NCBI GenBank assembly: GCA_021299695.1
Contig: JAJTEK010000001.1
Location: 1 to 64,000, forward strand
Direction: 5' to 3'
Length of the DNA: 64,000 nucleotides
Source: Pirellula sp.
GTDB lineage: Bacteria > Planctomycetota > Planctomycetia > Pirellulales > Pirellulaceae
Both the position numbers and the translations under genes were made by a program. Positions 38,345 through 64,000 of this stretch are shown here, in pieces; position 1 is the first letter of the stretch; every line of letters starts with the position of its first letter. The notes below the pieces were generated by a model. That model searched no databases. It was given only the letters and a program-made list of their open reading frames with translations, and had not been told where the DNA came from.

Positions 38345-39883
38345 TTGGTATCCTCCTCGGTAATCCTTCGAAACATAGGGTCTGTCTGGTTGGGGTTTGC
38401 TGTCCAACTGGCGATCACTCTGTATTTGACCCCCATTCTGATCTCGAAGCTTGGACCTGAGGGATATGGAATCTGGATCCTTATCCAAAGTCTCACAGGC
38501 TACTACGGCCTAATCGACATGGGGCTCAGAGCTGGCGTGACACAAACGGTCACCAAACGCATTGCGTCTGGCGACATGTCTACACTGGTTAATTACATCG
38601 GAGGTGTCTTGCCCCATTTGGCGAAAGCATCGGCTTTGATTTTAATCGCTGGGATTTTCATTGGATATACGTTATCCAACACCCTGGACGTTCGCCGAGC
38701 GCTCCGGGACATTCTGTTTCCAATGGTCTTTGTTCAAGTAGTTGGGATCGGTTTCACGCTGTTGAGCTTTCCGTTTGCTTCCGTCTTGGTCGGAACGCAA
38801 CGGTACGACATCGCAGAAGGCCTTGCTGTGGTCACTCGATTGATTTCATTGGCGGGTACTCTCATCGTACTTACCTACACAAACAATTTGTTCTACCTCG
38901 CGTTAACCCACCTTGGGGTTAACGTATTCGACCAATTTGCAAGATGTATTATTGCCGTCAAGTTAATCCCTGAACTGACGGGTATTCGCCTGAAAAGCAA
39001 TCGGTCTGAATTGCGCGAATTGTATCGGGTGGGTGGCTGGAACTTTGTTGTCAGTATTAGCCAGCAAATCCTGCAGCGATTCAATACGCTTCTTGCTGCC
39101 TACTTATTTTCTGTATCGAATCTCGTACCATTTAGTCTTGCCGGATCGCTTGCAGAACACTCTGGAAAAATCACCACTCTGGCTGCTCGCGTGCTTTTCC
39201 CAACATTTTCCCATCTGTCTCAAAACGAACAAGCAAGCCATACACAGAGGCTATTCCAGATCGCTTCGAGAATTAGTTTGACGGTGTCTTTAATCGCAAT
39301 CACCGTTGGTCTTATATGGTTTGAACCTTTCATGAATTTATGGCTTAAAAATGTCAATCAGAAGGAGGATGTTATCGCTTCGGCCAAACCGTTGTTTCTG
39401 GCGTTTGGTTTGATCAACGTTCTGAATTCCATTCGGAACGTGGGTTGGCAATTGATCATGGGTAACGATCGGGTAGAGTTTATGGGAAAAACGATGATGC
39501 TCGAATCGATTATGGCGATCGTGCTCTCGTTGGTGTTAGGGATAGGGATAGGAGTCATTGGATTGGTTCTCGGAAATCTTATGGCGATCTGCATTTCTAC
39601 ATTTTGGATTTGTCTTCCGACGTTCTCCAAGATGATCAATGTCTCTAATGCGAGCAATTTGCAAGCCGTATTCCTTCGACCAATAGCCTACAGCATCGCG
39701 ATCGGCGTAGGGCTTCTTAGTTGGTCACGATTCGTGACCAACCCCGAAAATTGGCTTGAACTATTGACATTCTGTGCATTTCCCACGATCGTTGTTTTGA
39801 TCATTGCAATGCCCATTTTATTGACGAAAGCAGAGAGAGCGATCGTTTCCAGTCGGCTTTTTCGTTTATTGAAACCGACCTAG
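38345..39883 (+). CDS. Wzx-like polysaccharide flippase
   Basis: A 512-residue integral membrane protein with about 12-14 hydrophobic helices, beginning VILRNIGSVWLGFAVQLAITLYLTPILISKLGPEGYGIWIL. The LGPEGYGIW block and the DMGLRAGVTQTVTK segment are typical of the MOP-superfamily oligosaccharide flippases, which move lipid-linked repeat units across the cytoplasmic membrane. The apparent start is a TTG at 38345; no strong ribosome site precedes it. With the Wzy-like protein at 46913 it implies a Wzx/Wzy-type assembly route. Confidence 0.88.
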   Translation: MVSSSVILRNIGSVWLGFAVQLAITLYLTPILISKLGPEGYGIWILIQSLTGYYGLIDMGLRAGVTQTVTKRIASGDMSTLVNYIGGVLPHLAKASALILIAGIFIGYTLSNTLDVRRALRDILFPMVFVQVVGIGFTLLSFPFASVLVGTQRYDIAEGLAVVTRLISLAGTLIVLTYTNNLFYLALTHLGVNVFDQFARCIIAVKLIPELTGIRLKSNRSELRELYRVGGWNFVVSISQQILQRFNTLLAAYLFSVSNLVPFSLAGSLAEHSGKITTLAARVLFPTFSHLSQNEQASHTQRLFQIASRISLTVSLIAITVGLIWFEPFMNLWLKNVNQKEDVIASAKPLFLAFGLINVLNSIRNVGWQLIMGNDRVEFMGKTMMLESIMAIVLSLVLGIGIGVIGLVLGNLMAICISTFWICLPTFSKMINVSNASNLQAVFLRPIAYSIAIGVGLLSWSRFVTNPENWLELLTFCAFPTIVVLIIAMPILLTKAERAIVSSRLFRLLKPT

Positions 39884-39952: not shown

Positions 39953-42286
39953 TTGAACGATTTTATTCAACGCGCGACTGCCAAAGTTCGCCGGATCGCA
40001 TTGGCTAAAACGGCAAAGTTTCGGTCGACAATACCCGTAGCAATCGCCGGGGCAGGACGTATATCCCCAACCCACATCGACGGGTTCTTTGATTCTGGTT
40101 ACTGCGATCCTATCGCTGTGTTTGATCCGAGCGTCTCGACGCTCGGTGACCTGATGGGACGCAATTCGATGGTCCGCGGATTCATTGATCCCAACCATAT
40201 GTACCAAGTCGTCAAACCCCAAATCGTCAGCGTTTGTACCTGGCCGCAAGCCCACCTCGAGGTCGTCAAACAGGCCGTCGATTCCGGCGCACGGGGCGTC
40301 CTTTGCGAAAAGCCCTTGACCCTACGACTCGATGAAGCCATCGCGATGAAGCAGTATTGCGAGGCCAATCGAGTCAAACTAGCCGGTGCCCATCAATACC
40401 GCTTCAGCGATCCGTTCAAAATCATACGACAAGCTATCGCCAACGGAAACCTCGGTAAAATCCAATCGATTCGCGGTTGCATCCAAAGCACCGTCGCTAA
40501 CAACGGTCCTCACCTGATCGATGCCATTCGATTCATTCTGGGCGATCGCCCCCTGAAACGTATCCGATGCAAAATGGATCGCGTCAAAATGGAGGACAAC
40601 CGAGGCTACCCAGCCGAAGATGCCTCATCGAGCGACCTGCTATTCGATGGCGATGTCCAAGTGCATCTGGATATGGGGGAAGCCGCCTGGGATTTCTTCA
40701 AAATCGAAATCCAGTCGGATCGAGGGGCCGTCTCGTTTTCTCCCAAAGGAATCCAGTCGACTATCTCACTACCCAAACCAAATCCTAACCCGAAACATGC
40801 ACATCCCCGCATGTTCAAGGAGTTTGTCGAATGGGTCCTAGGTAAACGTCAACATTTCGCTGCATCCGCCGAACAATCCGTGCTCAGCGTTGAAGCCATG
40901 CTGGCCCACTACGAAGCCGCTAAGCACGATCAGTGGCTCGAATTGCCCTTGATGAATCATGGGAATGTGATCAAGGAACTTTACCCTGAAATCCAATCGG
41001 AAAAAAAACACTTCGAGACGAACAGACCATGCTCAGTTTCAGAAGGCCTAAAACCCCTGGCTGAGCGTTCCCTGGCCGTCGATGGTCTTAATAAATCCGT
41101 TGAAAATTGGTTCACTGTCAAGCCTACGATCGGCAAAAAAGAAGCCGATCGAGTGGCCAAGGTCATTGCCACCGGTCAACTGTCCTCAACGGCTGGAACC
41201 GAGGTCAAAAAACTCGAAGCAGCCATGGCCAAGATGTACCAAGTTCCCGGTGCGGTCGCCTCCACCTCGGGAACCTCGGCGCTGCACGTCGCTCTAGCGA
41301 CTTGGAACCCAGACCCGGGTAGTGAAATCATCACCACTCCTGTGACCGATATGGGAAGCATCATCCCAATTCTTGCATGCAATTGTATCCCTGTCTTTGC
41401 CGACATCGATCCGATCACCGGGAACATGACGGCAGAGACCATCGCTTCGAAATTAACGGACAAGACCCGAGCCGTCATTCTGGTACACCTTTTCGGTCGC
41501 CCAGCCGATGTGCATGGCATCAAAGCACTGCTCAAAGATCGGAATATCGCCTTGATCGAAGATTGCTCCCAGGCACACTACGCTGATGTTCCTGGAGCGA
41601 AGATCGGATCTGTCGGGGACTTTGGCTGCTTTAGCTTTCAGCAATCCAAACAGATCACCTCGGGCGACGGAGGCGTCACCTTGATCAACCGTCCAGATCT
41701 GCTCAAACGCGCTCAATTGTTCATCGACAAAGGCTGGGATCGAACCGGTGGTGGGCGAGCCCACCTGTTCTTTGGAATGAACTACCGTATGACCGAAATG
41801 CAAGGTGCAGTCGCCAACGTCCAACTCGAACGACTGCCGGGATTGATCGAGGCACGTCGCAAGACGGCCGATTCACTGATGGCCAAACTCAAAGGGATCG
41901 AGGGAATCGTCTTGCCAAACGAGATCGGATCGTCAAGGTCGTCTTGGTGGATTTTCCACCTCATCTTCCAAGCATCCAAATACTTGCTCAATACGGAGAC
42001 GGTCTGTGGATTGCTCGGTAGCGAAGGGATCAAATGCAAGAATGGGTATCTACCACGGCCGATGTTCCAGGAAACGGTTTTGGTGGATCGCCAAACTTAT
42101 GGAAATTCAGGTTATCCGCTTACGACTTATGGGTATGTGGATCCGAGGCCCGAGGATTATCCTGGAACGATCGCATTCCTTAGGGATTCCATCTTGATGG
42201 GCTGGTCGCCAAATGTTCCCGATAAAACGATCGATCAAGTGGCCTCTGGAATCCAGAGGGTTATGAAATCGCTTCGGACTCGTTGA
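39953..42286 (+). CDS. Fusion: Gfo/Idh/MocA oxidoreductase plus DegT/StsC-type aminotransferase
   Basis: A 777-residue two-enzyme fusion. Residues about 28-370 are an NAD(P)-dependent sugar oxidoreductase (VAIAGAGRISPTHIDGF, VCTWPQAHLEVV, CEKPLTLRLDEA, AGAHQYRF, NNGPHLIDAIRF). Residues about 383-777 are a PLP aminotransferase (TSGTSALHVAL, TTPVTDMGSIIPIL, FADIDPITGNM, LVHLFGRPADVHGI, IEDCSQAHYAD) with PLP lysine K566 in FSFQQSKQITSGDGG. The TDMGSIIPIL and QQSKQ blocks resemble inosose aminotransferases (StsC group) more than WecE. Together they could oxidise a hydroxyl of a sugar or cyclitol and aminate the ketone. The TTG start at 39953 has AGGAG seven bases upstream. Confidence 0.88.
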   Translation: MNDFIQRATAKVRRIALAKTAKFRSTIPVAIAGAGRISPTHIDGFFDSGYCDPIAVFDPSVSTLGDLMGRNSMVRGFIDPNHMYQVVKPQIVSVCTWPQAHLEVVKQAVDSGARGVLCEKPLTLRLDEAIAMKQYCEANRVKLAGAHQYRFSDPFKIIRQAIANGNLGKIQSIRGCIQSTVANNGPHLIDAIRFILGDRPLKRIRCKMDRVKMEDNRGYPAEDASSSDLLFDGDVQVHLDMGEAAWDFFKIEIQSDRGAVSFSPKGIQSTISLPKPNPNPKHAHPRMFKEFVEWVLGKRQHFAASAEQSVLSVEAMLAHYEAAKHDQWLELPLMNHGNVIKELYPEIQSEKKHFETNRPCSVSEGLKPLAERSLAVDGLNKSVENWFTVKPTIGKKEADRVAKVIATGQLSSTAGTEVKKLEAAMAKMYQVPGAVASTSGTSALHVALATWNPDPGSEIITTPVTDMGSIIPILACNCIPVFADIDPITGNMTAETIASKLTDKTRAVILVHLFGRPADVHGIKALLKDRNIALIEDCSQAHYADVPGAKIGSVGDFGCFSFQQSKQITSGDGGVTLINRPDLLKRAQLFIDKGWDRTGGGRAHLFFGMNYRMTEMQGAVANVQLERLPGLIEARRKTADSLMAKLKGIEGIVLPNEIGSSRSSWWIFHLIFQASKYLLNTETVCGLLGSEGIKCKNGYLPRPMFQETVLVDRQTYGNSGYPLTTYGYVDPRPEDYPGTIAFLRDSILMGWSPNVPDKTIDQVASGIQRVMKSLRTR

Positions 42287-43354: not shown

Positions 43355-44161
43355 GTGTGGAAATCTAGAATTAAAAAAATGATCAAAGGCACGTTGCGTG
43401 CTTGGTTCGCGCCCAAGATCCGTGCGTCAGATTTCCAGCGTGGACTCGAGGCCTTGCAGGTCCCTAAGGATAAACCCGTACTTGTCCACAGCTCGCTGAG
43501 CACTTTTGGATTCGTTCCAGGGGGGCCGCAGACGATGCTCGAGGGTATCCAGAATTATCTCCAACCAGGAATGACGATTGTCCTGCCGACGCATTCATGG
43601 AATCTTGTAAGTCGTGGCCTGCGGAACTTTGATGCGAATTCAACGCCTAGTTGCGTCGGGACCGTTACCCAGTGGTTCCGACAACAACCCGGCGTGATCC
43701 GTAGCCTGCATCCTACACATTCGGTCGCAGCGATCGGACGAGGGGCCGAAGAACTTGTCTCTGACCACGACCAATGCGATACTCCTTGTGGTTCAGGCAC
43801 GCCCTACCATAAACTGCTGTCTTCCAACGGGACCATACTGCTCCTTGGGGCTCCCCTGGAATCCAACACTTGCTACCACACCCTAGAGGCACTAGCGGGA
43901 GTGGACTATCTGCTTCAAAAGGAACCAACGCAGTTTGATATCACGGATAGTCATGGACGCAGCTTTTCAAGAGCTTTCCGACTGCATCAGGCAGGTATTC
44001 GACGCGATCTAAGTTCTCTGTACCGCAATCTCCAGGAAAGCGGCGGGATATCGGTAAGTCAAGTCGGCGGTGCTAAGATCACCGCAATGGATGGCCGAAA
44101 GCTGTTAAAGGTTGGTATGGATCTTTTGGTAAATAATCCTCGCGCCTTGCTTGATGCCTAG
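43355..44161 (+). CDS. AAC(3)-family N-acetyltransferase
   Basis: A 268-residue acetyl-CoA-dependent N-acetyltransferase of the aminoglycoside-3-N-acetyltransferase fold: VLVHSSLSTFGFVPGGPQTMLEGI, TIVLPTHSWN, SLHPTHSVAAIGRGAEEL, CGSGTPYHKLLSSNGTILLLGA and NTCYHTLEALAGVDYL. In sugar loci these enzymes acetylate amino sugars rather than antibiotics, and an amino group could come from the fusion enzyme at 39953. Two starts are possible, GTG at 43355 and ATG at 43379; both leave the domain intact. A resistance role is not supported by context. Confidence 0.85.
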   Translation: MWKSRIKKMIKGTLRAWFAPKIRASDFQRGLEALQVPKDKPVLVHSSLSTFGFVPGGPQTMLEGIQNYLQPGMTIVLPTHSWNLVSRGLRNFDANSTPSCVGTVTQWFRQQPGVIRSLHPTHSVAAIGRGAEELVSDHDQCDTPCGSGTPYHKLLSSNGTILLLGAPLESNTCYHTLEALAGVDYLLQKEPTQFDITDSHGRSFSRAFRLHQAGIRRDLSSLYRNLQESGGISVSQVGGAKITAMDGRKLLKVGMDLLVNNPRALLDA

Positions 44162-46912: not shown

Positions 46913-48334
46913 ATGAGTAGTACAGCGGTTGTTTGGCTGTTGATTTATCTATTTTTAATTCTGAAGGGACTCGGACGACCCGGTTTGTTGGTCTGTGCCT
47001 ATGTCCTTTCATTCTACGTCGCTCCTAATTTCTGGTGGTGGGGCAAGGACGGGCTTTTAGCAACCACTAGCCGATGGAGTTTGTACACTGCTATCCTACT
47101 GATCGTCGGGATCCTACTGAATTCCCATAAGTCGAATGCTCTGTTGGGTGCAGATAAGCTGGTTCTTTTTTTGCTGAGCCTCTATACCCTTAACTGCACC
47201 ATGGTGCACTTCTTTTTGGCGGATTATCCGATCGTCAGTTATGACGAGTGGAATCTATTGTGGAAAACGATGCTGACTGCGATATTGTTTCGACTTGCGA
47301 TCCAATCGATCGAGGACTTGAACTGGATCCTCGCGACGAGTGTGATTGCTTGTGGCTACATCGGATACGAAATCGTCATCAATGATGCTGGTAAGTCGAT
47401 TCGTGGGCGACTTGAAGGGATTGACTTTCCAGGAGCCTCTGGCTCCAACGGCGCTGCGACGATCATGTCGATGGTATTCCCCTACCTTGCCTATTTGGTG
47501 ATTTGCAAACCCTTCAAATACTCACGGATCATCGGGTTTCTGTGCGCCCCATTGGTTTTGGATTCGGTGCTCCGATTCAATAGCCGTGGTGCCTTCCTCG
47601 GCATGATTGTCTCGGGCATAATGATGTTGGTCATGGCAAGGGGCAAATCCCGTCGCCATGCCTTTGTTGCGGTTTTTTTTGGCGTCCTTGCATTCCTATA
47701 CCAAGCTCAGGATCCGAAGATCTGGGAACGCTTCTTTTCGATCGGAGCAAGCGAAACGGAAAGGGATAACTCTGCAGCGAGTCGGATCGATTCTTGGAAA
47801 GCAGGGATCCAAATGATCGCCGATTACCCATTGGGTTCTGGAGGACGCGCCGCATTCATCAGTCCCCGCGGAAACCTTTACAGCTCAGTAGCATTGGGCC
47901 GCGATGATCTACGATCGGTTCACAACGGATACATCAGTATCGCCGCCGGTTGGGGGATCCAAGGATTTTTGTTGGTAACCTTGGCATTCCTGATCGCCAT
48001 GGGAAGAACATGGTTAGCCGTCAAGTATTTCCAGGAAATGGGAAATGAGAATATGGTCTTTCTGGGTGCCGCGATTTTGGCATCTTTTTTCGGACAGGCT
48101 GTTACGACCATTTTTGGAGACTACTACGATGGCGAATGGTTCGTTTGGATTTCGATTTATGGGTTGGCTTATGCGACTTTTGAAACGACCGAACGTGAGC
48201 GTTTCAATCGGGAGAGGGAATCCCCGGAACAGATTGAGACATTTTCAGACGACCCGATTGAATTCGATTGGGAACATCGTTCGGTAACCGAACGGATGGA
48301 TCGCATCAGTTCTCAGGGTGTCTCTCGGAACTAG
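46913..48334 (+). CDS. O-antigen polymerase/ligase-like membrane protein (Wzy_C family)
   Basis: A 473-residue protein with about 10-12 membrane helices, beginning VVWLLIYLFLILKGLGRPGLLVCAYVLSFY, and a large periplasmic loop containing RFNSRGAFLGMIVS, AASRIDSWKAGIQMIADYPLGSGGRAAF and VHNGYISIAAGWGIQGFLLV. The R-x3-W-x-A-G and H-N-x-Y pattern is the signature of O-antigen ligase/Wzy-type polymerases. It starts three bases after the preceding GT4 stop and is followed 13 bases later by asnB, so it is within one operon. Polymerase is more likely than ligase given the flippase and GT genes. Confidence 0.88.
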   Translation: MSSTAVVWLLIYLFLILKGLGRPGLLVCAYVLSFYVAPNFWWWGKDGLLATTSRWSLYTAILLIVGILLNSHKSNALLGADKLVLFLLSLYTLNCTMVHFFLADYPIVSYDEWNLLWKTMLTAILFRLAIQSIEDLNWILATSVIACGYIGYEIVINDAGKSIRGRLEGIDFPGASGSNGAATIMSMVFPYLAYLVICKPFKYSRIIGFLCAPLVLDSVLRFNSRGAFLGMIVSGIMMLVMARGKSRRHAFVAVFFGVLAFLYQAQDPKIWERFFSIGASETERDNSAASRIDSWKAGIQMIADYPLGSGGRAAFISPRGNLYSSVALGRDDLRSVHNGYISIAAGWGIQGFLLVTLAFLIAMGRTWLAVKYFQEMGNENMVFLGAAILASFFGQAVTTIFGDYYDGEWFVWISIYGLAYATFETTERERFNRERESPEQIETFSDDPIEFDWEHRSVTERMDRISSQGVSRN

Positions 48335-52677: not shown

Positions 52678-53850
52678 ATGTCCGAATTAAGAATCCTGAG
52701 CGTCTGCACGAATTTTCCGACGCGAAACCGACCGACACTGGGATTGTTTGTTTACCGTCGATTGAGCAAACTTTCTGGTTACGGCGATCTGCGCCTGCTC
52801 GTCCCACAACCCTATTTTCCATTCCTAAGGCCGAGGCCTGCCGATGCGTTGCTTGCAGGCAATAACATGCCTGTTTCCATTAAGCGAATGTTCTATTTGC
52901 CTGGCGTTGCCAAGAGTTGGGATGGAGGGTGGCTAGAGCGAGTCGTTTCAAGATGGGTTTCCTCGATGAAGGACCTGGATCGGGGTACGACCATTCTTGA
53001 CGCTCACTTTGGCTATCCCGAGGGGGTGGGTTGCTACCGAGTTGCCAAGCGCCTTGGGGTTCCTCTGTTCATCACTGTCCGTGGTTTGGAGACAGAGTTG
53101 ATGGAGTTTCCTGCGATCCGCAAGCAGATGCTCGAGGCCTTTGATTACTGCACTGGGGTCATTGCGGTAAGCCAATCGCTCAAGGACATGCTCGTTGAGC
53201 AGGGTCTCGAGGCGAAGAAAATCCGAGTCATCAGCAACGGTGTGGATTCAGATATCTACAGTCCTCGGGATAAGTTGCAAAGTCGGCAGCAGTTGGGGGT
53301 CCGAATCGATGCGAAGTTGATCGTTTCTCTCGGTAATGTTCAACGCCGAAAAGGCTACGATCTGCTGGTCGAAGCGATCGCTCCGTATCGCGATACGCCA
53401 AGCTTTCGCTGTGTCATCCTTGGAGGTGTCAACGAAACGGCGACGATGGCGAGTTTGGAGGCAAGAGTAGCGCAATTAGGAATGAGCGACCAAGTCCAGT
53501 TTCTGGGGCAAGCAACCCCGGATGTGGTCGTGCAGTGGTTGCGTGCAGCAGATGCCTTCGTGTTGCCGACCAGACGCGAGGGGTGCTGCAATGCCGTTCT
53601 AGAGGCGCTCTCGAGCGGTGTGCCCGTTATTACAACACCTGCAGGTGACAATACGAAATTTGTCGTCGATGGAAAGAACGGATTCATCGTGCCGCATGAG
53701 GATCCCAGGGGACTCCACCGGGCGATCGAGCAGGCATCGGAACACCCATGGGATTCGAGGGCAATATCCCAGTCCGTTCACCAGTACACTTGGGATGGAA
53801 CGGCTGAGAAGGTCCACATGTTTTTCCAAGAGCGACTCGGCCGAGGATAA
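52678..53850 (+). CDS. Glycosyltransferase family 4 (tandem paralogue 2)
   Basis: A 390-residue GT4 enzyme: ILSVCTNFPTRNRPTLGLFVYRRL, ILDAHFGYPEGVGCYRVA, FITVRGLETELM, GVIAVSQSLKDML, VISNGVDSDIY, LIVSLGNVQRRKGYDLL and VLPTRREGCCNAVLEALSSGVPVITTPAGDN. The strongest similarity to the preceding gene lies in the nucleotide-sugar-binding half, so both probably use the same donor, with acceptor specificity differing in the N-terminal half. The 55-base gap from paralogue 1 is the longest in this part of the operon. Confidence 0.92.
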   Translation: MSELRILSVCTNFPTRNRPTLGLFVYRRLSKLSGYGDLRLLVPQPYFPFLRPRPADALLAGNNMPVSIKRMFYLPGVAKSWDGGWLERVVSRWVSSMKDLDRGTTILDAHFGYPEGVGCYRVAKRLGVPLFITVRGLETELMEFPAIRKQMLEAFDYCTGVIAVSQSLKDMLVEQGLEAKKIRVISNGVDSDIYSPRDKLQSRQQLGVRIDAKLIVSLGNVQRRKGYDLLVEAIAPYRDTPSFRCVILGGVNETATMASLEARVAQLGMSDQVQFLGQATPDVVVQWLRAADAFVLPTRREGCCNAVLEALSSGVPVITTPAGDNTKFVVDGKNGFIVPHEDPRGLHRAIEQASEHPWDSRAISQSVHQYTWDGTAEKVHMFFQERLGRG

Positions 53851-53851
53851 A

Positions 53852-54850
53852 TTGGTTCATTCATCTAGGACAATCTGTGTGACGGTCGATACCGAGGAAG
53901 AAGGACTCTGGGGGGGGACCTTTCCGGTGCGCAATTGCACCACGGAAAACCTTCGGGGTTTGGAGCGATTTCAAAATCTATGCAATAGGTTCTCTTTGTC
54001 CCCGACATACCTCATCTCTGCCCCTGTGCTTGAAGATCAAAGGGCCATCAATGATTTGAAGAAATGGATGCTTCAAGGACGGTGCGAGATCGGAGCCCAC
54101 ACTCACCCGTGGTGCAACCCGCCGCTTGTTGCTCAAAACGTCTCGAATCGAGATAGTTTTTTTTGCAATCTACCCAACGACCTACAGTTCGAAAAACTTC
54201 AATGGTTGACCGACCGAATCACCGACGTATTCGATCAGCCACCCCGGACCTACCGAGCCGGCCGTTATGGCTTCTCCAAGGCAAGTATTCCGCACCTGTG
54301 CGAACTCGGTTACGTTCTGGATTCGAGTGTGTTGCCCTTTTTTGACTATAGCGCCGAGGACGGTCCCGATTATCGACAAAGCGAAAGAAAACCTCATGTG
54401 ATTTCGGATCCTGTTTCCAAACACTCCATTTGGGAACTACCTGTTTCAACCGGATTTTCCAGGCCAGGATACTATAGCTTGAGGAAAAAACTTTGGCGAT
54501 GCGTTGGCGGCCCGCTTGGACGAAAAACGAAATTGGCAGGACTTTCCGTCAGGCTCGGTCTGACCCGTCATCTGAAACTATCCCCCGAAGGGACTCAATG
54601 GAGAGAACTCAAGGGGCTCGTCGACGGACTAGTCCAAGATGGAATAAACCATATCGTGCTGATGCTCCACAGCACTTCGCTGATGCCTGGGTTTTCCCCC
54701 TATTGCAAAACGCCAGAAGCAATTGAGAACCTGTACGATCGTTTGGAAAAAACGCTCCGCTACGCAATCGAACATCATCATTTCGAAGGTTTAGCCTTGC
54801 TTGATGTCGCTACCAAACTGAATACCACTTTTGACCCCAATCACTACTAA
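53852..54850 (+). CDS. Polysaccharide deacetylase-family protein
   Basis: A 332-residue protein with the family opening ICVTVDTEEEGLWGG (about 8-22), whose acidic residues mark the metal site, then GRCEIGAHTHPWCNPP with the metal-binding His-x-His, TYRAGRYGFSKASIPHLCELGYVLDSSV and HIVLMLHSTSLMPGFSPYC near the end. Related proteins are frequent in PEP-CTERM-linked exopolysaccharide loci, where they N-deacetylate the polymer or a precursor. The start is a TTG at 53852, one base after the preceding stop, with GAGGAT as ribosome site; an upstream frame exists only inside the GT4 gene. Confidence 0.8.
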   Translation: MVHSSRTICVTVDTEEEGLWGGTFPVRNCTTENLRGLERFQNLCNRFSLSPTYLISAPVLEDQRAINDLKKWMLQGRCEIGAHTHPWCNPPLVAQNVSNRDSFFCNLPNDLQFEKLQWLTDRITDVFDQPPRTYRAGRYGFSKASIPHLCELGYVLDSSVLPFFDYSAEDGPDYRQSERKPHVISDPVSKHSIWELPVSTGFSRPGYYSLRKKLWRCVGGPLGRKTKLAGLSVRLGLTRHLKLSPEGTQWRELKGLVDGLVQDGINHIVLMLHSTSLMPGFSPYCKTPEAIENLYDRLEKTLRYAIEHHHFEGLALLDVATKLNTTFDPNHY

Positions 54851-54868: not shown

Positions 54869-57800
54869 ATGCGAGTATCGAACGAACAAGTTCTTGAATT
54901 TGCACGATGGACCGGGGACTCCAATCCGATCCACGTCGATCCGGTGGCTGCCAAAGAATCGGCATTCGGTGGCACGATCTGCCACGGCATGCTCGTGCTG
55001 ATCGAGGCATTTTCCCAATCGGATTTTGGGTTCGATCGCTTTGCGACACCTCTTGCAAATATCGATGTGCAGTTCCGTAGCGAGGTCCGACCCGAATCGC
55101 TGAGCCAAATCGACTTTGTCCGAACCGAATCGGGCCTGGGAGGCAAAGTCACCTCCAATGCAGGGCTCCAAATGGAAATCGCAGCCCGCTGGCAAAATTC
55201 AATCGCAAATCAGGGCTCAACACCCCAAGAGCATTCCTTTTCCTGGATGTCCAACGCGCTTGACCATGGCACAAGAACATCCATCGAGGAACGCCCCGAA
55301 CCCTGGACCACCGATGATTTTTACGCGGGACAGCAAACCCTCGGTGTCCATCGCTTCGGTTTCCATGAACCCTCAGAAAAAAGCAAGTTCAGCACCGTTC
55401 AGGAACAAGTCTTCGGGCTTTGCAGTTTTATCGTCGGTATGAGAGTCCCAGGACTCTCTTCGCTGTTCACCAAATTGAAAGCCCAGTTCCTAGACGATCC
55501 ACCCGCCACCGAGGAACTACTCTATCGGTTGACCTTGAGAAACTATGATGACAATTTCCGGATTTTGGAAATGCATCTAGAAATTGCCACCGCTAACCTC
55601 CGTCCGGTAGCCAACTGCCAAATCGAATGCTACGTCCGATTCCCTCAACGCGATCCCCAACTGGCGACCTACGAGACGGTTATATCCGATTCGGAAAAAC
55701 AAGCGATCCGAGGTCGAATCGCTCTGGTCTGTGGAGCAAGCCGCGGCTTGGGAGCCGATATCGCCGCTGCCCTGGCTTCTGCCGATTGCATCACCTACTT
55801 GGCCAGCCGCCGACGCTCCCCTACGACCGATCAACTGGTATCCCAAATCCAGCAGCGAGGGGGAATAGTTCACGTAATTCTTGGAGACGTAGGCGATCCA
55901 AAATGGTGCCAAAGCACTCGCACCGTTATCGAACAAAACCATGGACACCTGGATCTGCTTGTTCTCAACGCCTGCGAGCTGCCGCTTCTCCAACAGATCG
56001 CCGATTCGAATCCACTCGACTCTGCCAATTACATCCAGCGAAATATCGCACTTTACCAGCAACCGCTGATGCATTTCTTAGGGCTTCTCAAGAAAGCCGA
56101 CGGAACGCTCGTCGCGATCTCCTCTTCTGCAGTCGAAGATCCACCCTCTGGGTTCGGGGACTACGTTTCGGTGAAGCTTGCTCTCGAGGGTTCCATTCGG
56201 ACCTTGGCCAAGGAAAATAGCAATCTCCGCTGCTTGATCGTCAGACCTCCCCAATTGCAGACCGCTTGGAATGATACTCCGATTCGTGCCGTAGGATCGG
56301 TCAGCTTACCGGCAGTAGCCTCCGAGGTACTCGTTGCAATCAGCTCGCCGACTTGGGATCGCAATCTCAAGTTGCTTACCAAGTTTCCTAAGCGGAAGGC
56401 GCCTCGAGATAAACGCAACGGTCAAATCGATTTGGCGCTTGTGGCAAGTTTCACATTGGATCCAATCCATCCGGGGTTTGAAGGCTGGAGCGAACTTCTC
56501 GACATCGCGGTCCGACCCAATGTCGCACCCTATGCTCAGATCCTTCAACAAGCTCTCGATCCAACCAGCCTCGCATCAAGATCGACTTTCGGAAGCGTTT
56601 TCCTCCTCCGAAGTGAGGATTGGTTCCACGAACTAGCCCCCGAGTTGCTCTCCTCGAGCGATCAGGTGTCGAAAATCCTAAGCAAGAGTGTCTCTGAATT
56701 TGTCAGCGCGATGAAAACGCATCGCGCTTTGGCCAAAGGACCAACGCTGCTATTGCTCTGCCCATCGTTTGCAGAGCCCGCAATTGCGCCGCTGTTTGAG
56801 CAAGCCGAGTTGGAAATCCAAACAGCACTCAAAGGATTAGCCGGCTTGACGGTTTGGCGAGCCGACGCTTTTCACGCCCGTTATGACATTCGAGACCTGA
56901 GCTTTCGCGATGTATTGCGAAATACGATCGGGCATATCCCCTACACCGACGCATATTATGATTTCCTATCTACCCTATGCGTCAGACATCTGCAGCGTAG
57001 GCTCGATACCCCAAAGAAAGTCGTTGTCCTGGACTGCGATAACACCCTCTGGCGTGGAGTGGTTGGGGAACTGGGGGTCGAAGGTATCGGCTTTGATCCA
57101 GCGCACCGGCGACTCCAAGAAAAACTCGTCGAGCTAGCCCAAAGCGGAGTACTGCTGTGCCTCTGTAGCAAGAACGAACCCGAGGACGTTTGGGAGGTTT
57201 TCGACAAACGAAAGGATTTTGGGATCCGACGCGATCAAATCGTTGCATCGAAAATCAACTGGATGCCCAAGGGGCAAAACATTCAAGAGTTGGCCCGGTC
57301 CCTCAATCTCGGACTCGATAGCTTCATCTTTCTCGATGACAATCCAGTCGAATGCGCCGAGGTTCGCGCTACTTGCCCAAGCGTACTTACCCTTCAATGG
57401 CATCATGAGAACAATCGAGCCATGCAACTGCTCGATCATCTCTGGGAACTCGATGTTCACGCGACGACCAACGAAGACCGCGAGCGGACAAAAATGTACC
57501 GCGAGGAATTTCAGCGTCAGGAAGTCCAAGCCAATGCGGCCAACTTCCAAGCATTTATCGATTCACTCGAGTTGCAAGTGGTCTACCATGAAGTCACCCC
57601 AGAGAATCTCCAAAGAGCTTCCCAATTAACACTGCGAACCAACCAATTCAATTTCACCACCATCCGCCGTAACGAATCTGAAATTCTTGAACTGCTCAAT
57701 GACCCTACTGTCGATATACAGATTGTCCAGGTTCAAGATCGATTCGGAGATTACGGCATCGTCGGGCTCTTTATCGCAAAAACGCTCTCTTCTGGGTACT

Positions 57801-60800
57801 CCATCGATACTTTCTTGCTCAGTTGCCGTGTTCTAGGAAGAGGTGTGGAACATCGAATGGCCTCGCACATCGCAACCCTCGCCGAACGACGTGGGCTGAG
57901 CGAAGTTCTTTGGACATACAAACCAAGCGAAAAAAATGCTCCCGCGCGTATGTTCCTAGAGAAAATCGCGGAACAAATCCAAGTAGATCCCAAGGGGACT
58001 GAAGTTCCCATCGCCGTTGCGACCCTCAAGAATCTTCAATTCCAAGCCGACCACGATTACCAGGTGGTCGATGCCCCCTCTCCGCAAGATCCACAACCCA
58101 AAAAAGAATCGCAAAGTACCAAGAAGCGATCAGCAAGAGTCCGCGAAGAGCAAATCCGAAAAAGCGCCGAGGAACTTGCGACTTGGCAGAATTTATCCAA
58201 ATCGTTTCGAGGCGGTTTTCAGACCAGCACATCATATCCTCCTTCCAACCTTGACGTCGAGAGCCATGTGCTCGAAACATTTTCGAGCGTACTGGGAATC
58301 GAAACCGAAAAAGTCAAAAGCGTCGATCGGCTTGATGCTCTTGGATGCGACTCGCTTCAAATCGTCGGTATAACCGTCTCGCTGACGAGAATTTTCACCG
58401 ATCTGCCCCCGACTTTGCTTTTCGAATACCGGAGCGTCTCGGAAATCATCGAGCAAATCAAAAGGATTACGACTCCATCTTTTGATCGTTCCTTGCACGC
58501 TACTTCGGGTACGTCGGTAACACTAGATAGAAACCAATCTCGAACCTCCCCGGTCGATAATCAAATCGCGATCGTTGGAATAGGAATCCAGTGCGCAGCC
58601 GGAAAAGACCCGGGTTCTTTATGGAATGCATTGCTCAATCAAAAATCGATGGTCGTCCCTCTGCCAGAGCATCGAGACGGTTACGTCGGCGAAACCGAAT
58701 TTCAGCATCCTTATTTCGCTTCATTGATGCCAGAGGTTACCGGGTTTGATCCTGAATTCTTCGGTATCTCCCCACGCGAAGCGCAATACATGGATCCGCA
58801 AATGCGGATGGTGCTACAAAGCTCATGGCATGCTCTGGAAGATGCGGGCTCCTTCGGTGCACACTACGATCGATCCATGGGGATATTTATAGGAGTGATG
58901 TACCAATGTTACGGACGTTTGGCAAACGTCATCGCAACGAGCAATGCCAGTGTTTATCGATGCTGGGAAGGCTTTGGAGTTGCCAATAGGCTTTCCCAAG
59001 TCCTAGGAGTTTCAGGTCCTAGCCTTGCGATCGATACAGCTTGCTCCTCATCTGCAACAGCACTCCATTATGCTGTGCAATCGCTCCGAAATGGCGAGTG
59101 CCAAAGCGCCGTCGTCAGCGGAGTGAACCTGATTCTCGATCCAGCTCGAATCGCACAACTAGATAACTTGGGAATCCTGACACGCTCAGGAAAATGTGTA
59201 CCCTTTGGGGATCAAGCCGATGGAACCGTCATCGGAGAGGGAGCCGTCGCGATCGTGATCAAGCGACTTTCCGATGCGGTGCGCGATTCGCAGCGTATCT
59301 ATGCGATCATCAAAGGAACGGGCCTGAGTGTCGGAGCCGGAAGCGTCGGATTCACCGCACCGAATCCCGTCGCACAATCCCTTGCGATCCGGGCCGCACT
59401 TGCCGATGCCCAGGTCGACCCTCGCACGATCGGATACGTAGAAACCCATGGAACCGGTACGCAACTTGGCGATCCCATCGAAGTCCGTGGCCTAGAGATG
59501 GCCTACTGCGACACGACCCTCTGGGACCAAGATCTCGAGTGCCAAGCCCATACAGGGATCGGCTCGATCAAGCCCAACATCGGACACCTCGAAGCCGGTG
59601 CAGGGCTCATCGGAGTGGTCAAGGCAGCCCTCCAACTCCATCACAAGACCCTCTTGCCGAGCCTCACCTCGGATCGCCCCAACCCCCAAATCCCATTCGA
59701 CAAACTCCCCTTTAAAATCCAACGCACAACCCAAAACTGGGAACCGCTCGAAGTATTCCGAAAAAGCCTGCAAGCCTCTGAAACCCTGCCGCGTCGAGCC
59801 GCAGTCAACTCCTTTGGCGTCGGTGGCTCAAACGCTCACATCGTCCTCCAAGAGGCTCCTAGGCTCGAGTCCCCCTCCTCGGGGACGGATCGCTCCTGGC
59901 ACCTGCTAACCCTGCAAGCAACAAATCTAGAGGGACTCAAACTCCAAGCCAGAGGTTGGTCGAAATTCCTAAAAGTACAGAACCAACCGTCGATCGGAAA
60001 TGCGATCTATTCCAACATCGATGGACGTAAAAGTTTTGAATTCCGAGCCGCCTTACTGGTCGATGACCTTCAGGCCGCTTCGAACAGCCTCGACCGCTGG
60101 GGTACTGAATCCAGCGACCTGTGCGAATCGAACCCACATTCCGAAGATTTATTTTGGGGCAATGCGATCTGGAAAAAATCCAATCGCATCGCATATCTCT
60201 TTACAGGCCAAGGCGCCCAGTATCCTGGTATGCTCGGGCAGCTTTATGAGGAAAACCCAATCTTCAAGAATGCCATCGATCAATGCGCCAAGCTGCTCGA
60301 CCCACTGCTCGGAGTGCCGATACTGCATATCCTCTTCGGGCAAAATTCTGACCCCAATCCATCGATTCATCAAACTCGCTATACCCAACCAGCAATGTTT
60401 GTGATTCAGTACAGCCTGTTCAAACTTTGGGAGTCCTACGGAATTAAGCCCGATGTCGTACTTGGGCATAGCATCGGAGAAATCGCAGCCTACTGTACAA
60501 GCGGAGGGTGCTCTCTTGCCGATGCTCTTCGACTCGTCAGTGCTCGTGGCGAATTGATGCAACGTTTGGACTCAGGGGGTGGGATGATGTCGGTCTCGAC
60601 CTCGGCTCAGGCAGTCGAATCGCTCCTAACCCAAAGCGGTGCAGATCTATCGATCGCTGCGTATAACGGTCCGAACCAGACGGTTGTCTCTGGTTCGCTT
60701 GTGCAAATCGCGAGATTCGCAGAACAAGCTCTTTCCGCCGGGATCAAAACCCAAGCATTGAAGGTTTCTCATGCTTTCCATTCGAAACTCATGGAGCCCA

Positions 60801-63800
60801 TGCTCGATGAATTTCGTTCGGTTGTCTCCAAACTAGGGCTCGGGGTCCCAAGCATCGAATTGATTTCCACGGTGAGCGCAAAGCCCGCTGCTATCGAGCT
60901 CGCCTCGTCGGAGTACTGGGTCGACCAAGTGCGTCAGCCTGTGCGATTCATGCAAGCGATGGAAACCCTCGCGAGCAAAGAACTTTCACACTGCGTTGAG
61001 ATCGGACCACATCCGGTACTCGTTACAATGGCTCAGACGATGGAACTGGCTGATTTTCATGAGACAACTCGGTGGTTACCGAGCGCTCGTCGAGGAGAAA
61101 AAGACTGGCCGGTTTTTCTAAAAAGCATCGCGCAATTCTACGTCGACGGATATCGAGTCGATTGGAAGACGGCCGAGGCACCCTATGCAAGGCAAAGGGT
61201 GAGTGTTCCAGGCTATGAATTCTCCAATCGCAGGATTTGGCTCGATGAAATCAAATCGCTGGTAGCCAACCAAAACACCGTCGAGCATACTAAACCAGAA
61301 ACCCTAGGCCAAAACTCCCCGGAACGACTTCTTTACCAACTCGGCTGGACACGCTCGGCAACCTGTGAGGAGACGTTGGCAAACCCAGCCAAGCCTATGG
61401 TCTCGGACAAGCCCTGGCTCGTGCTCTCGGTGGGCGATGCTGCACTCGGAGCAGATCTGGAAAAACAACTTCAGAGCCTCGCATACCAAGTACGCCTGGC
61501 TCATTGGAATCCCGAAAAAAGGGACTGGCATCTCCAGCCTAGCGATCTGACGGGGGTTGAACGCATCATCCTGGCTGCAGGAGAGGCTTCTGGGAGTTTG
61601 GAAAACCACGACGATGTCCAATCGCTTTGCGATTCGCAAATTGAGGCCTTTTCTCAGGCGCTCAGGCTGGCCCAAGCAGCCGAGGCCTCTGAACCGTCCA
61701 AAACCGATCGTTCAAGAGTTTTTTGGTTGGTAACCAATGGAGCATCGATGCTCGTGAATTCGCCGGCTCTCTCACCACTATCTGCCGTCCTCTGGGGTGG
61801 TGCCAAAGTCGCTTCGATCGAACTTCCCGAGTACTGGGGAGGATCGATCGATGCGGGAGATAGGGTGCTAGAGGCAGTCCGATGGATCGCTGGAAAATTC
61901 GATGAAGACCAAGTCATCCTCGATGGCCAAAGAGCGTGGGTGCCTCGACTCGAACCGCTGCGAGTCGATTCGGATACGAATGCCCACCCCCTCGGACGTA
62001 GCGTGTTGATCAGCGGCGGACTCGGAGCGATCGGATTGCGATTGGCCAAATATGCCCTCGAACAAGGCGCCGTGGAATTGATCCTGGTCGGCCGCAACGC
62101 AAAACCAACCGACCAGCAACACAGAAGGCTTGAAGGATTGCAGCGCAACGGGTGCTCGATTCGCTACCTATCTGCCGATGTTTCAAGCGAACAAGGACTT
62201 GCCAAACTAGACTCTGCCCTGGAAGGGACACAAATCGAGTCGATCTTCCATACCGCTGGGATCGATTTCCTTTCTCCGATCGCTCAATGGACTGGCGAAG
62301 ATATTCGTCGGGTCACTCAGGCCAAAATCCAAGGAGCATGGAACCTCCATCGATGGAGCTTGAAGCACCCGATCAAACAATTTGTGTTGACCTCTTCGAT
62401 CGCCTCGGTATGGGGAGCCCCCGAGCGGTTCCTCTATGCCTCTGCAAATGCGTTTCTCGATGCACTCGGGGATTCAAGAACTTTCCTTAAGCTTCCAGTG
62501 ACTGTGCTGAATTTTGGCCCCTGGGCAGACGGCGGCATGGCCGATCGAGCGTCGCTCGAAGAATACCAACGGGTTGGAATGCAAGGATTGGATCCTACCG
62601 AGACACTTCGAGCGATCGATCTGGTTCTCAAACGAGGAGTTTCAAAAGCGGTCATCACCGACACGCGATGGGAACGCTTTGTATCGGTCATGTCAGCTCG
62701 CAGAGCGAGATGCGTTTTCAACTCGGTACTCCTGGATAAAGATCAAATCCGAATTCCCCAAAAGGCTCTATCCAAAGAACCTTGGTTGACCGAACTCCGC
62801 ATTCTGGACCAGAAACTCCAAGAGACCGAACTCAAGCGGTTGATCCGTAAAGAACTTTCAGAGGTACTAAAATCTCAAGAGGAGCGAATCCATTCAGATC
62901 GAAATCTATTCCGTTTGGGATTGGATTCGATCACCGCCGTGGAGTTATCGATGCGGATAAAAAAGGGGACCGGAATCGTTGCAGGAAAATGGCTCTCGGG
63001 AGAACCTACGATCGACTCGGTCGCAAAAGCTTTATTGGACCATTGGAGAGCAGAGACTTCAGCCAATCCAACATCTGTCGGTGCAGAAATTGCAAGACCA
63101 CTGGTCACCGGACCATGGACCAAAGAGCTCATGGCACTCTCAAGTATCGAGGAAAAAAAACGCAAAATGCTCGATTGGCTCGCCAGGGACCTCGAACGCC
63201 TCTTCGGGAAACCCACGTCCGGGCTTGCTCTTGAAACTCGAATGTCCGATCTAGGACTCGATTCGCTCGGCTCCGTTGATTTCGCAACCCACCTTAGGAA
63301 ACAGTTGGGCCTTTCCTCCCCGCCACGCCTGATGCAGTACCCAACGATCGGTGATTGGATCCTATCGATCTTGAACCAACCCAATTGGAAACGCACCGAA
63401 GAAGCCCCTCCAAGTGGACAAACCGCTGATCAAGGAGCCGAAATCCTATTGTTCGAGCCCTCACTCCATGCAGATGTAATGGACTTTTGTGCCCAAGGTT
63501 GGCAGGACCGCGTACCGGAGATCCAACAAAAGCGTTGGGATTGGATGTTCGTTGGCTCTGCAACAAGATTGCAAACCACTCCGAAGGTATGGTTGGCTCG
63601 CGACCAGAATAAAATCGTCGGCCAAATGGGGGTTCAGTTCACAGGCCTCAAGCTAGCCAAGGAAGAAATTCGATCGGGTTGGTTTGTCGAAACGATGGTT
63701 CTAGATCGCTATCGCTCGCAAGGCCTCGGTGCGCAGATCCTACTGCAGGCAGAAGAACAGATGCCTCAGGCACTCTCACTGGGCCAAACGCCCGAGGTTC

Positions 63801-64000
63801 GTAAAATCCTCGATTCACTCGGATGGAAACAAATTTGCCCTTTAAATATTCATGTGTTCATGACCAATCCTCAGAGCATTCTCAAGGGTAAATTTCCGAT
63901 GGGTTTAGACCGACTCGCGGCTGCATATTTCAGCCTCCATCGCGCTCGTCGTAACGCCCTGCAAACAAGTCGAGATAGCCGGATCGAATTTCGTAGGATC
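54869..64000 (+). CDS. Type I polyketide synthase with FkbH-type loading module (partial, runs off the right edge)
   Basis: At least 3,044 codons without a stop. Domains by eye: MaoC-like hotdog (5-115, GDSNPIHVD) and a second hotdog-like stretch (150-270); SDR reductase (281-480, CGASRGLGAD, Y432 and K436); FkbH-like region (520-1080) with HAD motif D722-x-D724 (LDCDNTLWRG); ACP1 (1125-1203, S1162); KS (1232-1645, C1392, H1527, H1573, complete); AT (1775-2060, S1868 in GHSIGE, HAFH at 1968-1971, malonyl type); post-AT linker; KR (2150-2560, GGLGAIG, Y2523); ACP2 (S2687); ACP3 (S2799); GNAT-like domain (2855 onward, RSQGLGAQ). It starts 18 bases after the deacetylase stop and is probably cotranscribed. 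No DH or TE is visible in the extension module. Product unknown. Confidence 0.92.
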   Translation, partial: MRVSNEQVLEFARWTGDSNPIHVDPVAAKESAFGGTICHGMLVLIEAFSQSDFGFDRFATPLANIDVQFRSEVRPESLSQIDFVRTESGLGGKVTSNAGLQMEIAARWQNSIANQGSTPQEHSFSWMSNALDHGTRTSIEERPEPWTTDDFYAGQQTLGVHRFGFHEPSEKSKFSTVQEQVFGLCSFIVGMRVPGLSSLFTKLKAQFLDDPPATEELLYRLTLRNYDDNFRILEMHLEIATANLRPVANCQIECYVRFPQRDPQLATYETVISDSEKQAIRGRIALVCGASRGLGADIAAALASADCITYLASRRRSPTTDQLVSQIQQRGGIVHVILGDVGDPKWCQSTRTVIEQNHGHLDLLVLNACELPLLQQIADSNPLDSANYIQRNIALYQQPLMHFLGLLKKADGTLVAISSSAVEDPPSGFGDYVSVKLALEGSIRTLAKENSNLRCLIVRPPQLQTAWNDTPIRAVGSVSLPAVASEVLVAISSPTWDRNLKLLTKFPKRKAPRDKRNGQIDLALVASFTLDPIHPGFEGWSELLDIAVRPNVAPYAQILQQALDPTSLASRSTFGSVFLLRSEDWFHELAPELLSSSDQVSKILSKSVSEFVSAMKTHRALAKGPTLLLLCPSFAEPAIAPLFEQAELEIQTALKGLAGLTVWRADAFHARYDIRDLSFRDVLRNTIGHIPYTDAYYDFLSTLCVRHLQRRLDTPKKVVVLDCDNTLWRGVVGELGVEGIGFDPAHRRLQEKLVELAQSGVLLCLCSKNEPEDVWEVFDKRKDFGIRRDQIVASKINWMPKGQNIQELARSLNLGLDSFIFLDDNPVECAEVRATCPSVLTLQWHHENNRAMQLLDHLWELDVHATTNEDRERTKMYREEFQRQEVQANAANFQAFIDSLELQVVYHEVTPENLQRASQLTLRTNQFNFTTIRRNESEILELLNDPTVDIQIVQVQDRFGDYGIVGLFIAKTLSSGYSIDTFLLSCRVLGRGVEHRMASHIATLAERRGLSEVLWTYKPSEKNAPARMFLEKIAEQIQVDPKGTEVPIAVATLKNLQFQADHDYQVVDAPSPQDPQPKKESQSTKKRSARVREEQIRKSAEELATWQNLSKSFRGGFQTSTSYPPSNLDVESHVLETFSSVLGIETEKVKSVDRLDALGCDSLQIVGITVSLTRIFTDLPPTLLFEYRSVSEIIEQIKRITTPSFDRSLHATSGTSVTLDRNQSRTSPVDNQIAIVGIGIQCAAGKDPGSLWNALLNQKSMVVPLPEHRDGYVGETEFQHPYFASLMPEVTGFDPEFFGISPREAQYMDPQMRMVLQSSWHALEDAGSFGAHYDRSMGIFIGVMYQCYGRLANVIATSNASVYRCWEGFGVANRLSQVLGVSGPSLAIDTACSSSATALHYAVQSLRNGECQSAVVSGVNLILDPARIAQLDNLGILTRSGKCVPFGDQADGTVIGEGAVAIVIKRLSDAVRDSQRIYAIIKGTGLSVGAGSVGFTAPNPVAQSLAIRAALADAQVDPRTIGYVETHGTGTQLGDPIEVRGLEMAYCDTTLWDQDLECQAHTGIGSIKPNIGHLEAGAGLIGVVKAALQLHHKTLLPSLTSDRPNPQIPFDKLPFKIQRTTQNWEPLEVFRKSLQASETLPRRAAVNSFGVGGSNAHIVLQEAPRLESPSSGTDRSWHLLTLQATNLEGLKLQARGWSKFLKVQNQPSIGNAIYSNIDGRKSFEFRAALLVDDLQAASNSLDRWGTESSDLCESNPHSEDLFWGNAIWKKSNRIAYLFTGQGAQYPGMLGQLYEENPIFKNAIDQCAKLLDPLLGVPILHILFGQNSDPNPSIHQTRYTQPAMFVIQYSLFKLWESYGIKPDVVLGHSIGEIAAYCTSGGCSLADALRLVSARGELMQRLDSGGGMMSVSTSAQAVESLLTQSGADLSIAAYNGPNQTVVSGSLVQIARFAEQALSAGIKTQALKVSHAFHSKLMEPMLDEFRSVVSKLGLGVPSIELISTVSAKPAAIELASSEYWVDQVRQPVRFMQAMETLASKELSHCVEIGPHPVLVTMAQTMELADFHETTRWLPSARRGEKDWPVFLKSIAQFYVDGYRVDWKTAEAPYARQRVSVPGYEFSNRRIWLDEIKSLVANQNTVEHTKPETLGQNSPERLLYQLGWTRSATCEETLANPAKPMVSDKPWLVLSVGDAALGADLEKQLQSLAYQVRLAHWNPEKRDWHLQPSDLTGVERIILAAGEASGSLENHDDVQSLCDSQIEAFSQALRLAQAAEASEPSKTDRSRVFWLVTNGASMLVNSPALSPLSAVLWGGAKVASIELPEYWGGSIDAGDRVLEAVRWIAGKFDEDQVILDGQRAWVPRLEPLRVDSDTNAHPLGRSVLISGGLGAIGLRLAKYALEQGAVELILVGRNAKPTDQQHRRLEGLQRNGCSIRYLSADVSSEQGLAKLDSALEGTQIESIFHTAGIDFLSPIAQWTGEDIRRVTQAKIQGAWNLHRWSLKHPIKQFVLTSSIASVWGAPERFLYASANAFLDALGDSRTFLKLPVTVLNFGPWADGGMADRASLEEYQRVGMQGLDPTETLRAIDLVLKRGVSKAVITDTRWERFVSVMSARRARCVFNSVLLDKDQIRIPQKALSKEPWLTELRILDQKLQETELKRLIRKELSEVLKSQEERIHSDRNLFRLGLDSITAVELSMRIKKGTGIVAGKWLSGEPTIDSVAKALLDHWRAETSANPTSVGAEIARPLVTGPWTKELMALSSIEEKKRKMLDWLARDLERLFGKPTSGLALETRMSDLGLDSLGSVDFATHLRKQLGLSSPPRLMQYPTIGDWILSILNQPNWKRTEEAPPSGQTADQGAEILLFEPSLHADVMDFCAQGWQDRVPEIQQKRWDWMFVGSATRLQTTPKVWLARDQNKIVGQMGVQFTGLKLAKEEIRSGWFVETMVLDRYRSQGLGAQILLQAEEQMPQALSLGQTPEVRKILDSLGWKQICPLNIHVFMTNPQSILKGKFPMGLDRLAAAYFSLHRARRNALQTSRDSRIEFRRI

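Follow-up and report, generated by a model that had tools for sequence, protein, structure and literature searches.

Assembly lines that open with an FkbH domain are the closest described parallels to the polyketide synthase (PKS) gene reported here, which lies in a 64,000-nucleotide stretch of Pirellula sp. DNA (the window; assembly GCA_021299695.1, positions 1-64000 of the 125,144-base contig JAJTEK010000001.1). BryA of the bryostatin line reportedly begins with a dehydratase, a reductase, FkbH and an acyl carrier protein (ACP), which provide a D-lactyl starter; in FR901464, lactate plus malonate reportedly give rise to a C5 acyl group held as an amide. In a pathway-modelling paper that cites the FR901464 cluster, FkbH loading is written as the reaction of 1,3-bisphosphoglycerate with ACP to give D-lactate-ACP (PMC7901079); a title cited there describes that cluster as an acyltransferase (AT)-less PKS using glycerate starter units. 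On the glycan side, an amino sugar of the Flavobacterium psychrophilum O-antigen bears a 3,5-dihydroxyhexanoyl group that is predicted, in the available text of PMC6519341, to be made on an ACP, and the structure of this amide is also given in the part seen of PMC3210612.

The leading, still tentative, reading of the window locus is that a single-chain modular type I PKS, devoted to glycan decoration, draws on glycolysis for a lactyl starter of its own making, lengthens this and hands the product, by way of a terminal GNAT domain, to an amino sugar in a surface polysaccharide of variable serotype. We infer the starter chemistry, the number of cycles, the release by GNAT and the acceptor as follows. 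FkbH would take a phosphoglyceryl unit (probably 1,3-bisphosphoglycerate), remove its phosphate and load glyceryl on the first carrier, ACP1; the MaoC domain would dehydrate the glyceryl, and a short-chain dehydrogenase/reductase (SDR) would reduce the resulting pyruvyl/enol form to give lactyl-ACP1. The ketosynthase (KS) and the AT, which has an HAFH motif, would then extend lactyl once with malonyl, and the A-type-like ketoreductase (KR) would reduce the ketone to leave 3,4-dihydroxypentanoyl on ACP2/ACP3. Finally, the two-lobed GNAT would move this acyl group from the ACP to an amine as an amide, the most likely acceptor being an amino sugar of a Wzx/Wzy-type polysaccharide made from the same locus. 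We compare MaoC-SDR-FkbH-ACP with the lactyl loading modules of bryostatin and FR901464 and read it as one of that kind.

Domain organization and conservation of the synthase

The sequence gives the domains, their order, their intact motifs, their conservation and their locus. The gene starts at 54869 on the + strand, remains open to the window end at 64000 and stops at contig position 64522, its stop codon lying 522 bases beyond the window, and encodes 3217 residues. Profile searches of the whole gene gave the following order:

54869..64000, + strand: whole PKS gene within the window, a single open reading frame
54869..55183, + strand: MaoC hotdog 1 (residues 1-105; PF01575 at 3-88, 49.7 bits, cut-off 27), with the hydratase motif D17..H22
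55286..55663, + strand: possible second hotdog half (residues ~140-265), a two-part HTD2 match, the second part weak
55700..56368, + strand: SDR (residues 278-500; PF00106 at 284-467, 78.4 bits on the fragment, cut-off 26.6), with Rossmann GASRGLG and S-Y-K
56408..57007, + strand: FkbH N-terminal domain (residues ~514-713), conserved, without Pfam match
57014..57976, + strand: FkbH (TIGR01686 at residues 716-1036, 312.7 bits, cut-off 146.65)
58268..58456, + strand: ACP1, the starter carrier (residues 1134-1196; PF00550, 38.7 bits), Ser in LGCDSLQIVG
58559..60046, + strand: KS (residues 1231-1599; PF00109/PF02801, 218.3/116.3 bits, and PF16197), with DTACSSS, HGTGT and NIGH
60194..61138, + strand: AT (residues 1776-2090; PF00698, 214.9 bits), with GHSIGE and HAFH
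61316..61978, + strand: AT-KR intervening region, the least conserved long segment (27-51% identity)
62003..62530, + strand: KR (residues 2379-2554; PF08659, 172.3 bits), with a Ser-Tyr-Asn motif
62813..62968, + strand: ACP2 (PF23297 at residues 2649-2700; also one of three PF00550 stretches)
63173..63358, + strand: ACP3 (PF00550 at residues 2769-2830)
63446..63868, + strand: GNAT lobe 1 (residues 2892-2968; PF00583, 20.9 bits, cut-off 20.7)
63986..64000, + strand: beginning of GNAT lobe 2, which continues to contig position ~64483, without Pfam match

The order hotdog-SDR-FkbH-ACP-KS-AT-KR-ACP-ACP-GNAT given by the original prediction was therefore recovered, with FkbH, KS and AT well matched and GNAT weakly. 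Its description of the gene as long, intact and close to the preceding one also held, the single open frame starting 18 bases after the upstream stop (54850). It had missed the possible second hotdog half, the FkbH N-terminal domain and the second GNAT lobe, most of which lies past the window.

A double hotdog at the N-terminus is likely but tentative. A profile of ten hotdog regions matched human HTD2 (3ir3) strongly in the stretch 3-43 and weakly in 182-256 (i-E 2), and D17 and H22 of the MaoC domain were invariant in all ten aligned homologues. The FkbH N-terminal domain was matched by other FkbH proteins, for example that of genome G047 (query residues 519-1032). FkbH itself has the HAD motifs DCDNTLW, SKN and DDNP, followed by the C-terminal motifs RTNQFN and LSCRVLGRG. 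The Cys of the latter was invariant, and the Cys ahead of SKN was replaced by Ala in G014 and in Streptomyces anulatus, a variation that bears on which Cys, if any, carries an acyl intermediate. The HAFH motif presumably marks a malonyl-type AT. The KR lacks LDD and has a Trp eight residues before the Tyr, which we take to indicate an A-type enzyme; the region between AT and KR is taken as the structural part of the KR.

With KS (Cys-His-His), AT (Ser) and ACP (Ser) active sites in one chain, the protein has the features of a type I cis-AT PKS, the AT inside the module (GHSIGE) setting it apart from trans-AT synthases. FkbH, above its cut-off, stands ahead of an ACP and of the first KS, as in FkbH-type loading modules, and is itself preceded by a dehydratase (D17/H22) and a reductase (S-Y-K) with intact motifs, as in lactyl loading modules. 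The protein fell below the thresholds of NF045894 PKS_plus_SDR (1129.5 versus >1740 bits) and of the polyunsaturated fatty acid synthase PfaA, TIGR02813 (331.1 versus >1010.1 bits). Its GNAT stands after the last ACP; in CurA-type loading modules GNAT is said to stand at the start, ahead of the first ACP.

Full-length orthologues were found in 3 of 26 other sampled genomes of the genus (G001, G013 and G014; 3220-3301 residues) and in a genome of another genus, G907 (3233 residues). Two more genera of the family (G545 and G932) have the N-terminal block cut by a contig end, and a second G545 contig encodes KS-AT-KR-ACP-GNAT-GNAT. In the family sample, 16 of 149 genomes matched residues 1-1110 and five covered the block (the window genome, G014, G907, G545 and G932); the other 11 matches started at residue 507, covering the FkbH part only. 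In the order sample, TIGR01686 gave 36 matches in 33 of 296 genomes, four of them in open frames of more than 1000 residues (the window, G014, G545 and G611). With residues 1-484 as query, the phylum sample returned one genome of 392, the window's own, a weak negative in that few best candidates were scored per genome.

The claim that the key catalytic residues are present and that the gene looks functional is in line with what the orthologues indicate. The active-site motifs (MaoC D..H, SDR S-Y-K, FkbH HAD, ACP Ser, KS C-H-H, AT GHSIGE-like/HAFH and KR S-Y-N) are kept in the five full-length copies and in the available parts of G545 and G932. Against G001 and G013, dN (nonsynonymous divergence) was low throughout, 0.15-0.56 over 14 segments. 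The ratio of dN to synonymous divergence (dS) was 0.05-0.29 in the nine segments for which one or both comparisons gave a dS value; dS was saturated in both comparisons for the FkbH N-terminal domain, AT, ACP2, ACP3 and the second GNAT lobe.

A contig in an Alphaproteobacteria-labelled metagenome bin (CANGYM010000106.1, L015, 1-3221) matched the gene, and horizontal transfer to that class was considered and rejected: this 100% identical 3.2 kb contig is the sole match to the gene in a 1.4 Mb bin and is probably a binning error. Among 190 genomes of the class named by the label, with few candidates scored per genome, none had the MaoC-SDR part; 15 matched, namely the misbinned contig and 14 genomes in which the match begins only at residue 513.

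The loading block outside the family

Among 72,556 plasmid records, 125 matched residues 1-1110 and four covered at least 80% of them, two in one chain and two in split form. The one-chain copies are on Ensifer canadensis pT173a (34% identity, 97% coverage), typed as conjugative, where a 15 kb PKS gene (L055 13941-29015) is followed by a large non-ribosomal peptide synthetase (NRPS) gene, and in Streptomyces anulatus NBC 01759 (33% identity, 98% coverage), where a 12 kb PKS gene adjoins PfaD and fabD genes. Because of these neighbours the latter is probably a trans-AT line. Both chains run MaoC-SDR-FkbH-ACP-KS and also contain KR; no AT match was found in the first 2500 residues of either. In Streptomyces NBC_01224 the unit is split into a MaoC-SDR protein of 504 residues, a major facilitator superfamily gene on the opposite strand, an ACP and an FkbH. 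In the planctomycete G658 (L053 1810-5636) a MaoC-SDR-ACP protein (494 residues) lies beside an AAC(3)-FkbH fusion (782 residues), the FkbH of which groups with stand-alone types in a 56-row tree (topology only); this pair could be a minimal system that passes lactyl to an amino sugar with no PKS involved.

By this sequence evidence, MaoC, SDR, FkbH and ACP form a unit used with various partners, and we therefore argue that MaoC and SDR process the starter. This bears on the strongest alternative, in which glyceryl is extended as loaded and MaoC and SDR work afterwards, on the longer chain, so that the same glycan would receive a C5 acid of the trihydroxy or hydroxy-enoyl type. FkbH is described as loading glyceryl in tetronate pathways (PMC7489565) and glycerate in corramycin and vioprolide (PMC10099666), and the profile search found no dehydratase inside the KS-AT-KR module. 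Yet separate genes for MaoC-SDR, FkbH and ACP are found together, and MaoC-SDR precedes FkbH-ACP1 in the aligned fused copies; we regard retention of the glyceryl unit as unlikely.

The KS was consistent with the kinship of these chains. In a 26-row tree the window family grouped with the first KS (KS1) of Ensifer and of S. anulatus in one clade (97/97). After the long-branch Ensifer KS2 and KS3 were dropped and a lower length limit had added one more NBC_01224 KS (25 rows), the clade was kept (87/80) and a KS of the NBC_01224 locus, where the unit is split, joined next (93/88). Among those compared, the Ensifer and S. anulatus KS1 are the nearest relatives outside the family, and the KS of FkbH-KS proteins without MaoC-SDR (G911, G920, G936, G952, G965, G969 and G611) were placed elsewhere.

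The domain order had been put forward as undescribed. This stood for the whole chain, which was found neither in the 190 genomes mentioned above, with few candidates scored in each, nor on plasmids (none of 709 records matching the KS-to-GNAT part covered 80% of it), and fell for the N-terminal half, shared as MaoC-SDR-FkbH-ACP-KS with the Ensifer and Streptomyces plasmids. No identical architecture with a known product was present in the collections searched, nor was the union of the loading block with a single cis-AT KS-AT-KR module and a terminal GNAT found elsewhere in them. In the searches made, the full chain thus appears, by sequence matching, in one planctomycete family only; the loading block is of a known kind, and the novelty seems to lie in the combination of known parts.

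In the open-licence literature, no paper was found that joins planctomycetes, PKS and FkbH, that joins FkbH, a lactate starter and bryostatin, or that joins bryA, a loading module, lactate and polyketides; for FkbH with polysaccharide, none of the matches listed contained FkbH. The parts seen of PMC8636102 and PMC4849084 hold nothing on the loading module, and a lead under "lactyl" (PMC12184294, seen in part) concerned lactylates and was set aside as irrelevant.

Two other FkbH arrangements were encountered. In a Rhodococcus plasmid PKS (L058 8001-9485), FkbH is the C-terminal domain of the chain as annotated. A second planctomycete family (L092-L097) encodes FkbH-KS proteins, in open frames of 1648-1723 residues in five genomes and shorter in G965, with a large ACP-starting protein adjacent or one gene away at all six loci (e.g. 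L093 8383-13326 and 13307-19003).

The GNAT domain and the polysaccharide locus

Since the profile search of the PKS gave no thioesterase match, the terminal GNAT is the likely release step. In the PDB, the only solved relatives retrieved with the GNAT profile were AAC(2') amino-sugar acetyltransferases (5 distinct sequences, E 2e-5), a weak kinship only, as the domain scored 26 bits on the aminoglycoside 2'-N-acetyltransferase model NF000108 (threshold >350). Lobe 2 aligns with stand-alone two-lobed proteins. One of these, in G047, follows genes for an iron-containing alcohol dehydrogenase (Fe-ADH), an AMP-ligase, LuxE and LuxC (Pfam), and others stand, by eye, in seemingly the same operon in G452 and G600. 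Operons of Fe-ADH, AMP-ligase, LuxE, LuxC, SDR and two-lobed GNAT were seen at L069 1508-8829 (Pfam), L070 4613-11744 and L071 2044-9094 (both by eye), with the deacetylase-like gene described below upstream at L069 and L071. Judged from gene content, such operons may be an alternative acyl supply for the same type of transferase.

The genes around the PKS include the following:

38345-39883: protein with the look of a Wzx flippase by eye, without Pfam match
39953..42286, + strand: a single open frame encoding a Gfo/Idh oxidoreductase and a DegT aminotransferase (PF01408, PF01041), a possible amino-sugar source
43355..44161, + strand: AAC(3)-type acyltransferase (PF02522, 175.3 bits), also in G001
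46913..48334, + strand: Wzy/O-antigen-ligase-type membrane protein (PF04932, 57.3 bits)
53849..54850, + strand: deacetylase-like gene (Polysacc_deac_1 below cut-off, E 0.094), start codon uncertain

The deacetylase-like gene has DTEEE, HxHPWC, RAGR and MLHS, which we take to be NodB-like motifs; with 13.1 bits on PF01522 (threshold >23.1) the likeness is one of motifs only. It adjoins the PKS in the window, G001, G014 and G545 (the G013 contig is too short to tell) and lies upstream of the GNAT operons of G047 and G600. Two routes of acyl supply thus lead to the same GNAT, often with the same putative deacetylase, which fits a deacetylase that would free an amine and a GNAT that would re-acylate it.

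The locus further encodes a UDP-sugar dehydrogenase, a GDP-mannose/dTDP-glucose-type dehydratase, a nucleotidyltransferase, an asparagine-synthase-like protein and eight glycosyltransferases, five before the PKS and three after. The PKS had been placed at the end of a polysaccharide operon; it is followed by glycosyltransferase genes, a UDP-GlcNAc 2-epimerase gene and other sugar genes. Compared with contig C81 of G014, the flank at contig 75.7-84.2 kb shows 96% DNA identity, and identity declines stepwise (97, 90, 80, 75%) to 68-70% in the PKS, the pattern expected if, as this comparison suggests, the locus varies like a serotype locus. Across contig 67.6-84.2 kb, identity between the same pair climbs from 75% on the PKS side to 96% at the flank, a recombination-like gradient in a hypervariable locus.

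We considered the possibility that the product is a free small polyketide, a signal or an antibiotic, with the sugar locus as mere neighbourhood or as the source of its glycosylation. Related loading blocks do open PKS chains beside an NRPS gene or beside P450 and regulator genes. Here, by contrast, the PKS stands among glycosyltransferase, Wzy-type, nucleotide-sugar and epimerase genes, homologues of the sugar genes recur in the G001, G014, G545 and G907 loci, and the chain ends in GNAT with no thioesterase match, which together make a free product improbable. Repeated use of the module, of which single-module synthases are capable, to build a longer polyhydroxy acyl chain is just as improbable: tandem ACPs in all five full-length copies favour it, but the G545 copy has one ACP and the KS groups with the KS1 of multi-KS chains.

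Several observations weigh against the proposal of a lactyl-primed synthase and transferase. The tandem pair of ACPs is also compatible with more than one cycle. In the best FkbH tree, of 22 chosen rows, the sequences of the MaoC-SDR-FkbH type were not grouped together; holding them in a single clade gave p-AU 0.065, which neither establishes nor clearly rejects such a clade. The deacetylase-like gene is ~8 kb from the PKS in G907, and was seen neither in 3.3 kb upstream of the G932 PKS nor in the fetched neighbourhoods of the G452 and G027 GNAT genes. Profile support is weak for both GNAT (E 0.0002-0.0005) and the deacetylase (E 0.09), and two of the stand-alone GNAT proteins are without any Pfam match.

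If the proposal of lactyl loading, extension and transfer is true, it joins natural-product assembly lines with bacterial surface glycans and suggests that the same loading block, with related KS domains, works both in chains that have their own AT and in chains that lack one. It would also allow lactyl loading to be studied in a compact system encoded by a single gene, with one protein, one starter, one extender and one release step, and predicts an acyl sugar detectable by nuclear magnetic resonance and mass spectrometry in planctomycetes, the surface polysaccharides of which are, to our knowledge, little characterised.

Comparison with known systems

BryA and the FR901464 synthase resemble the window PKS in having a dehydratase, a reductase, FkbH and an ACP before the first KS, a likeness of reported domain order; they reportedly belong to multi-module trans-AT lines that make free metabolites, whereas the window PKS has one cis-AT module and a GNAT. 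The uncharacterised PKSs of Ensifer pT173a and S. anulatus share the MaoC-SDR-FkbH-ACP-KS chain and differ in the lack of an AT match over the 2500 residues scanned. The first module of oocydin OocJ, DH-MT-FkbH-ACP, likewise has a dehydratase-like domain before FkbH, but a methyltransferase replaces the SDR and its authors think the module inactive (PMC4552970, in part). For the FkbH of vioprolide and corramycin, activation of a phosphoglycerate-derived unit has been proposed or shown, as we suggest for the window FkbH, yet these enzymes work inside NRPS lines and the glycerate is kept (portion seen of PMC10099666). The R-group genes of F. psychrophilum, in contrast to the single chain of the window, encode separate type II proteins with a PglD-like transferase, and the word FkbH is absent from the paper (PMC6519341). 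They nevertheless bring together a KS, a KR, an ACP and an acyltransferase that are predicted, in the same paper, to make a 3,5-dihydroxyhexanoyl amide and attach it.

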